Source: Gammaproteobacteria bacterium (GTDB lineage: Bacteria; Pseudomonadota; Gammaproteobacteria; SZUA-140). From it: 42,140 bases of DNA. The notes beneath the pieces are model-generated. The model had not been told where the DNA came from and did no database searches. It was given only the letters and a program-made list of their open reading frames with translations. Every line of letters begins with the position of its first letter. The stretch's first letter is position 1. Location: the NCBI GenBank assembly GCA_015488555.1, contig WFNO01000030.1, positions 1 through 42,140 on the forward strand, written 5' to 3'. A program made the position numbers and the translations under genes. Below, piece by piece: positions 688-42,140 of the stretch.

Positions 688-715
688 ACTGCGCATAATG
701 TATATTATGTTAAAT
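688..715 (+). other. dif: dif site: XerC/XerD chromosome-dimer resolution site
   Basis: The 28 bp consist of ACTGCGCATAA (XerC arm), TGTATA (central region) and TTATGTTAAAT (XerD arm). The E. coli dif site has GGTGCGCATAA, TGTATA and TTATGTTAAAT, so only the two outermost XerC-side bases differ. At dif, XerC and XerD recombine dimeric sister chromosomes during division under control of FtsK, so the site marks the replication terminus. The context agrees: genes to the right run overwhelmingly toward the site. It lies 39 bp beyond the stop of the formyltransferase gene. Plasmid pdif sites and Xer-using mobile elements carry related sequences, but these usually have a variable centre. Confidence 0.93.
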
Positions 716-39811: not shown

Positions 39812-41725
39812 TCAGAAGGGCGATACGGCCACCTGCCGGTCCAGCAGTTGGACGATGTCGGCGTAGCCGCTCTTGCGCGCGATGTCCAGAGGCGTCTCTC
39901 CGGCGGCGTTGCGCAGCCGACTATCGGCCCCGTGTTCCAGCAGCAGACGTACGATCTCGGTGTGGCCGCCGCGGGTGGCGTAAGCGAGGGCCGTCATACG
40001 GCTGTCTTCCCGCTCGAAGGGCCGCCCGCTCTCTTCCACGGCGTTCACCTCGGCGCCGTTCTCCAGCAGCAGGGCCACCACGCGCCGGAAACCGTTTTTG
40101 GCCGCTGCCATGAGTGGATTCATGCCGGTGAGATCGGGCAAATCGGGATTGGCCCCCGCCTCCAGCAAGAGCTGCACCGTGGGGGTGAAGCCCTGGGAGG
40201 CCGCCCAGAACAATGCCGTCTTGCCTTCCGCGTCCCGAATGTCCGGATCGGCGCCGGCCTCCAACAACACCCGAGCGGTATCGGCATGGCCGTTGGCCGC
40301 CGCTTCGATGAGCAGGGGACGCAACTGCTGTTCGTCGATGATGTTGGCGATGAAATAGTCCAGCAACTGGCCGGCCTGGGCCTCGTCTGGATCCAGGCCC
40401 TTGGCGATGAGCAAGCGCATCACGGCCGCATCTCCCTTACGCGCGGCGAAGAGTCCGGGGGTCTCCACCAAGCGATTGGGTTGCAAGGGATCGGCACCCG
40501 CTTCCAGCAGCAGGCGGGCCACGTCGCTGTGTCCCCGGCGGATGGCGGTGATGAGAGCGGTGTCTCCGCGCGAGGCCGTCCACATGAGATCCCGTTGCTG
40601 AATGGGCACGCTGGAGGCTCGAATCCTGGCCTCGGTCAATCCCCAAGGCACATCGTCGATGTCGGCTCCGTGACGGATGAGCAGCTGGGTAGCCTCCAGA
40701 TTACCGTAGTAGGCGGCGGTGAGCAGCGGCGTGACGCCGGTGATGGGATCGCGATAATTGGGATCGGTGGCCGTCTCCAGCAGCAACCGGACTTTTTCCA
40801 CATCGCCGAGGCGAATGGCCTTGAGCATAGCCTCTTCGGCGCTCAAAGCGGCATAAAGACTCTCGTCGCGCCCGCCTCGGCTCCGCAACAGCGTGGCGAT
40901 CTGGCGATAGCCCTTGCGCTTGGCGATGGCCAGGGCAGTATCTCCGTTGCGGCGGGTGATGTTGGGTTCGGCGCCGTACTCCAGCAGGGCGCGTGTGATA
41001 GCGGTGGAACCGTCCACTACCCCGCCGTATTCCGCGGCATACATCAGAGGTGTCATGCGGTCCAGGGCCTGCACCTCTTCCTGGGAATAGAGGTTGGGAT
41101 CGGCGCCCTGGGCCAGCAGGAAATCCACCACCTGCGGGCGGCCGAATTTGATGGCTTGAATCAAGGCCGTCTCCCCCGCCTGATTGCGGCGATCGAGCCG
41201 GGCACCGGCCTGCAACAGCAGGCGCACGTGCTCCAGGCGCCCGTTGGCGGCGGCGTTCATCAAGGCCGTGGTCCCGTCATTGGTGCTCAGATGGACGTTG
41301 GCGCCCCGTTCGAGCAGCAGGCGCAGGATGGAGGTGTGGCCTTCGCCAGCCACGGCGATGAGCGGGGTATTGCCCAATTCGTCTTGCTGGTCGACGTCGA
41401 CGCCGCGATCGAGCAACAGGCGGACAATGTTCTCGTGTCCGTAACGGGCGGCCAGGATGATACCCAGGGCCTCCGCTTCCGCTTCCAGGGCTTCGCGGTC
41501 GTCTTCCACCGCGGGCGGGGTGGTGATGGGCGATGGATCCTCGGGTGCGGGGCCCAGGAAGGTAGATTGAGCCAGCTGGTCCGCCGTCACCACCTCTTCC
41601 GTTTCTTCCACGGGTGATGCAGACACCGCTTGCTCTACTTCCGGCACCGTGGTGCATCCCGATATCCAGGCGGTCGCCAGGACCGCAGCCAGTCCACTGC
41701 CGAATCCAATCAGACGCTGTCTCAC
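39812..41725 (-). CDS. Ankyrin-repeat lipoprotein
   Basis: The N-terminus RQRLIGFGSGLAAVLATAWI followed by SGC is a lipoprotein signal (Cys24). After an acidic, Pro/Glu-rich linker (about 25-85) come a dozen or more ankyrin repeats to the end, for example GNTPLIAVAGEGHTSILRLL, GKTALFWAASQGFTPTVQLL and GETPLDIARKSGYADIVQLL. The protein is therefore a periplasmic or outer-membrane-anchored ankyrin scaffold of about 637 residues. GTG 41725 is preferred as start because GGAGG lies seven bases before it and it places the signal peptide at the very N-terminus; ATG 41758 would add 11 residues. Periplasmic ankyrin proteins have been linked to oxidative-stress enzymes in some bacteria, but no partner gene is visible here. 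Confidence 0.87.
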   Translation of the reverse strand: MRQRLIGFGSGLAAVLATAWISGCTTVPEVEQAVSASPVEETEEVVTADQLAQSTFLGPAPEDPSPITTPPAVEDDREALEAEAEALGIILAARYGHENIVRLLLDRGVDVDQQDELGNTPLIAVAGEGHTSILRLLLERGANVHLSTNDGTTALMNAAANGRLEHVRLLLQAGARLDRRNQAGETALIQAIKFGRPQVVDFLLAQGADPNLYSQEEVQALDRMTPLMYAAEYGGVVDGSTAITRALLEYGAEPNITRRNGDTALAIAKRKGYRQIATLLRSRGGRDESLYAALSAEEAMLKAIRLGDVEKVRLLLETATDPNYRDPITGVTPLLTAAYYGNLEATQLLIRHGADIDDVPWGLTEARIRASSVPIQQRDLMWTASRGDTALITAIRRGHSDVARLLLEAGADPLQPNRLVETPGLFAARKGDAAVMRLLIAKGLDPDEAQAGQLLDYFIANIIDEQQLRPLLIEAAANGHADTARVLLEAGADPDIRDAEGKTALFWAASQGFTPTVQLLLEAGANPDLPDLTGMNPLMAAAKNGFRRVVALLLENGAEVNAVEESGRPFEREDSRMTALAYATRGGHTEIVRLLLEHGADSRLRNAAGETPLDIARKSGYADIVQLLDRQVAVSPF

Positions 41726-42030
41726 GCTCCCCCCTCCGGCCCTCGTGGGACCGCGCATACACCGAATCCTTTCTTCTCGATCCGCTCCTCCCATCTCCTC
41801 TCGGCGACCCTCTACTGGCTCCCGATGAGGGAGCCCGATTGGGGCGTTTGGGTTGCCACCCGGATGGTCGCCGGTGCAAGATGTTCCCGCGCGTTCTTCC
41901 AGCGGACTCTGAGCGGTGCACCGGGTGGTGGTGCCACGGAATCCCTGAGCGCCTTGGGAACGCCGGGCCTTTCTTCTTATCCCAGCATGATACTCGAAAT
42001 TGGCGTGGCGCATAAAGAGCGGAGAGGGGC

Positions 42031-42140
42031 TCAATCACGCAACCGCCAGCCCCGTTTCAGGAGCCACAAGGTCAGCACAGTCAGAAATAACTGAAAAAAC
42101 AAGACGATGAACATGCTGCGCCAGGGAGAGACGTCGGAGA
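42031..42140 (-). CDS. C-terminal end of a membrane protein (cut by window edge)
   Basis: The minus-strand frame from the window edge encodes about 35 residues and stops with TGA at 42031-42033. It includes SDVSPWRSMFIVLFFQLFLT and then VLTLWLLKRGWRLRD. A single strongly hydrophobic segment followed by basic residues indicates a C-terminal transmembrane helix with its end in the cytoplasm. The family cannot be told from this piece. The space from 41759 to 42030 between it and the ankyrin lipoprotein gene shows no further gene. Confidence 0.6.
   Translation of the reverse strand, partial: SDVSPWRSMFIVLFFQLFLTVLTLWLLKRGWRLRD

Follow-up and report, generated by a model that had tools for sequence, protein, structure and literature searches.

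The closest described systems are the dif site of Escherichia coli, served by XerC, XerD and FtsK, and the proteobacterial dif sites surveyed by Carnoy and Roten in 2009, in which the dif pattern was found in approximately 88% of species (PMC2731167). The surveyed sites typically combine a conserved XerD arm with variable outer bases in the XerC arm, and about a quarter of them have mobile genes as neighbours (PMC2731167). We compared with these systems a candidate site in a contig of 42,140 nucleotides (C30), which forms the entire stretch of DNA analysed here (the window) and belongs to a draft genome of 2.35 Mb in 132 contigs that is 95% complete.

The site, ACTGCGCATAATGTATATTATGTTAAAT, lies on the + strand at positions 688–715, with 687 bases to its left, and shares 26 of its 28 bases with E. 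coli dif. Both mismatches are at positions 1 and 2, the outermost bases of the XerC arm, whereas the centre and the XerD arm are reproduced exactly, in agreement with what an earlier note on this DNA had read from the letters. The layout is that of a chromosomal dif site, with two 11-bp arms around a 6-bp centre and a conserved XerD arm, and the site resembles the surveyed proteobacterial set in being palindromic and A+T-rich and in where it is conserved and where it varies. It is accompanied by the following features:

1–176, + strand: 3′ end of an ISL3-family transposase gene, cut by the contig end (PF01610, E = 1.9e-7)
314–538, − strand: C-terminal remnant of an IS256/Mutator-family transposase (PF00872, E = 9.3e-12)
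522–640, − strand: truncated copy of a 281-nt MITE, its first bases overlapping the end of the IS256/Mutator remnant
688–698, + strand: XerC-binding arm ACTGCGCATAA, different from E. coli at positions 1–2, which also vary in the family
699–704, + strand: central hexamer TGTATA between the arms, the same as in E. coli dif
705–715, + strand: XerD-binding arm TTATGTTAAAT, unchanged in 13 family members
755–1570, − strand: formyltransferase-domain protein (PF00551), the right-hand neighbour, reading toward the site

Elsewhere in the window, the − strand at 39812–42034 encodes a 740-amino-acid protein that consists largely of ankyrin repeats.

A dif site is expected once per chromosome, and the whole draft genome (95% complete) contains exactly one dif-type match at up to three mismatches. 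The search with the 28-mer that the earlier note had proposed thus returned this site and no further identical copies. Across approximately 500 kb of the genome that were scanned, the only other sequence with 18 or more of the 28 bases matching was the palindrome of the site itself.

Sites within three mismatches of the core occur in 33 of 55 genomes (own genome counted), always as one match each; the true share of carriers is probably higher, because more diverged dif sites escape this cut-off. Among the 13 sites from the same family, including the one described here, the XerD arm is invariant and variation is confined to positions 1–4, 7, 13 and 15, mainly 1–4. At least 119 stretches from other genomes, nearly all labelled as gammaproteobacteria, contain the identical 28-mer, and its carriers among the matches listed include Marinobacter, Aeromonas, Psychromonas and Methylococcaceae. 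In a genome of the same genus (G001), dif is followed on the right by a homologous TPR/GT41-type gene on the same strand. The mobAB-like gene that adjoins dif in G001 was also sought in the genome studied here, where only its last 56 codons were found, at the start of contig C31; what comes next there is a phosphatase-like reading frame rather than dif, so that the left flank of dif is not conserved within the genus as it stands. Directly beside dif on its right, G001 also has several tandem-like copies of a repeat of approximately 75 nt that contains 'tgtcatttcgaccggagggagaaatcctgtcccaccgccccaagattcctcgctgcgctcggaatgacgaggaag' (L019:1540–1930).

The genome encodes the full cognate set of proteins. 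XerC scores 354.9 bits against TIGR02224 and XerD scores 384.7 against TIGR02225, both above the curated cut-offs (335.15 and 329.6, respectively), and FtsK carries a gamma domain (102 bits). The XerC gene follows diaminopimelate-epimerase-like and DUF484-like genes and the XerD gene lies upstream of a DsbC-like gene, as judged by eye from the translations; we take these settings to be the usual operons and familiar arrangements of the two genes.

In relatives, the sequence around dif is polarized. In the four other genomes of the family that have long flanks (G003, G005, G008 and G011), GC skew is positive to the left of dif and negative to its right. In eight genomes of other genera of the family, 35 GGGNAGGG octamers (E. 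coli octamer assumed) point toward dif and 4 away from it (p = 3e-7). Given its single copy, its conservation in the family, the presence of XerC, XerD and FtsK, and the octamer polarity and skew switch in relatives, we are highly confident that 688–715 is an ordinary chromosomal dif site of the XerC/XerD/FtsK system of dimer resolution, and the identification made in the earlier note therefore holds, the two mismatches to E. coli included. That note had looked for dif near the minimum of GC skew; its proper place is the maximum of the cumulative GC skew (PMC2731167).

The window itself is less clearly polarized. The earlier note had taken the site to fix the window at the replication terminus and to account for its strand bias, and had proposed converging octamers as a check. 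In relatives from other genera, octamers and skew are centred on dif, and 22 of the 28 genes called in the window do run toward it. However, the window has 9 octamers toward dif and 4 away (E. coli octamer assumed; p = 0.27, not significant), and this total of 13 is the number that chance gives. Raw GC skew to the right of dif should be negative but is +0.03. Fourfold sites of the genome have a skew of −0.119, a general excess of C on the coding strand, to which much of the raw value in the window is owed. Where genes lie mostly on one strand, such an excess can reverse the sign of the raw GC skew. After correction for coding, the replication component of the skew in the window is −0.001 and −0.017 (each ±0.020), that is, approximately zero, compared with absolute values of 0.05–0.15 on many other contigs. 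A flip at dif is invisible in the window because just 687 bases lie to the left of the site, and the rest of that side is lost where the contig breaks off in an IS copy. The same-genus genome has no GC-skew flip at dif either, and its octamers are divided 10:6 toward and away from dif (E. coli octamer assumed). With a corrected skew near zero, octamers at 9:4 and a congener without a flip, replication polarity around dif in this genome is weak or mixed.

One explanation, which we consider possible but somewhat doubtful, is that the site is a true dif that IS or MITE rearrangement has moved off the terminus defined by skew, and that the compositional meeting point of the forks is a junction on another contig, C86. 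The flat skew of the window is consistent with such a displacement, as is the gene content of C86. Its 47–61-kb segment has the same gene order and orientation as DNA to the left of dif in G005 (−39 to −20 kb), G008 (−17 to −8 kb) and G011 (−18 to −8 kb), and its 23–30-kb segment matches G003 at −34 to −26 kb, also to the left of dif. The GC skew of C86 then turns sharply from positive to negative at 61–62 kb, exactly at a complete copy of the 281-nt MITE (61861–62141), the same element that is truncated in the window approximately 48 bases before dif. This MITE has a palindromic core, inverted ends of approximately 34 nt and what appear to be TA target duplications. The genome contains more than 10 good copies, many of them at contig ends, and copies of approximately 72% identity occur in G001. 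The ISL3-family transposase has ten further copies in the genome, again mostly at or near contig ends. A second dif-like site was sought at the C86 switch and none was found. The earlier note had named a GC-skew switch far away as evidence against its reading, and the C86 switch, beside genes that lie to the left of dif in relatives, comes close to this.

On the other hand, the 281-nt repeat may mark a false join in C86. The metE gene, to the right of the switch on C86, is on a contig other than that of dif in G003, and the C86 join therefore unites distant DNA, by rearrangement or by assembly error. The right arm of the window is also plausible as terminus-side DNA, because uvrC lies to the right of dif in G003 as well, at 88 kb and in the same orientation; in the single-contig genomes G038 and G053, uvrC is approximately 190 kb from dif. 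By contrast, and in favour of a displacement, an HrpA-like helicase gene that is 31–35 kb from dif here is 0.8–0.9 Mb away in these two relatives from the same class. The window is thus a mosaic of terminus-side uvrC and a helicase gene that is distant in relatives. Either the terminus was rearranged or C86 was misjoined at the MITE, and the C86 switch may be an inversion junction, a displaced terminus or a misassembly. We infer that insertion elements brought about rearrangements around dif, which would explain why dif and the skew switch lie apart in the assembly. A broader version, in which rearrangement in an IS- and MITE-rich genus has uncoupled dif from the skew switch so that dimers are resolved away from the compositional terminus, seems unlikely to us.

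It is very improbable that the site is instead the attachment site of a mobile element that uses XerCD (an IMEX or a filamentous phage) or a dif-like site of a plasmid. IS debris does lie 50–690 bases to the left of the site, and dif sites are common targets of integration (PMC2731167). However, integration normally leaves two copies and only one is present, no phage or integration genes are among the genes scanned, and the contig bears genes for tRNA-Leu, tRNA-Cys and tRNA-Gly, uvrC, a RelA/SpoT gene, rsd, rtcB and the HrpA-like helicase. We rejected an IMEX or other dif-integrated element, as two dif-like sites flanking an insert are required and the genome has one. The debris, which the earlier note had tied to the site, is real (the transposase remnants at 1–176 and 314–538) but is the usual company of dif, because IS, transposase or integrase genes accompany 14.2% of surveyed proteobacterial sites and phage proteins flank 10.9% (PMC2731167). 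A chance match can be dismissed, as approximately 4e-9 matches this good are expected per genome (2.35 Mb, both strands, genome composition), 100 shuffled windows yielded none as good and relatives conserve the site.

As a chromosomal dif site, 688–715 would be expected to act as its E. coli counterpart does, with which it shares the exact centre and XerD arm, a single copy, and XerC, XerD and FtsK-gamma in the same genome. It differs from E. coli dif in two outer XerC-arm bases, in the weak local skew and octamer polarity of this genus and in the IS and MITE remnants on its left. By analogy with known biology, an odd number of crossovers would join sister chromosomes as a dimer, and septal FtsK, guided by octamers, would move along the DNA until two dif copies lie together. 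There, the FtsK gamma domain would activate XerD, which would exchange one pair of strands and XerC the other, converting the dimer into two monomers.

The site itself is an expected, well-described feature that follows an already known pattern. It likely anchors the window at the replichore boundary, on account of what dif is rather than of the composition of the window. The dif site is a firm landmark for ordering the contigs of this draft genome, and the region around it would illustrate how mobile elements can reshuffle a terminus.
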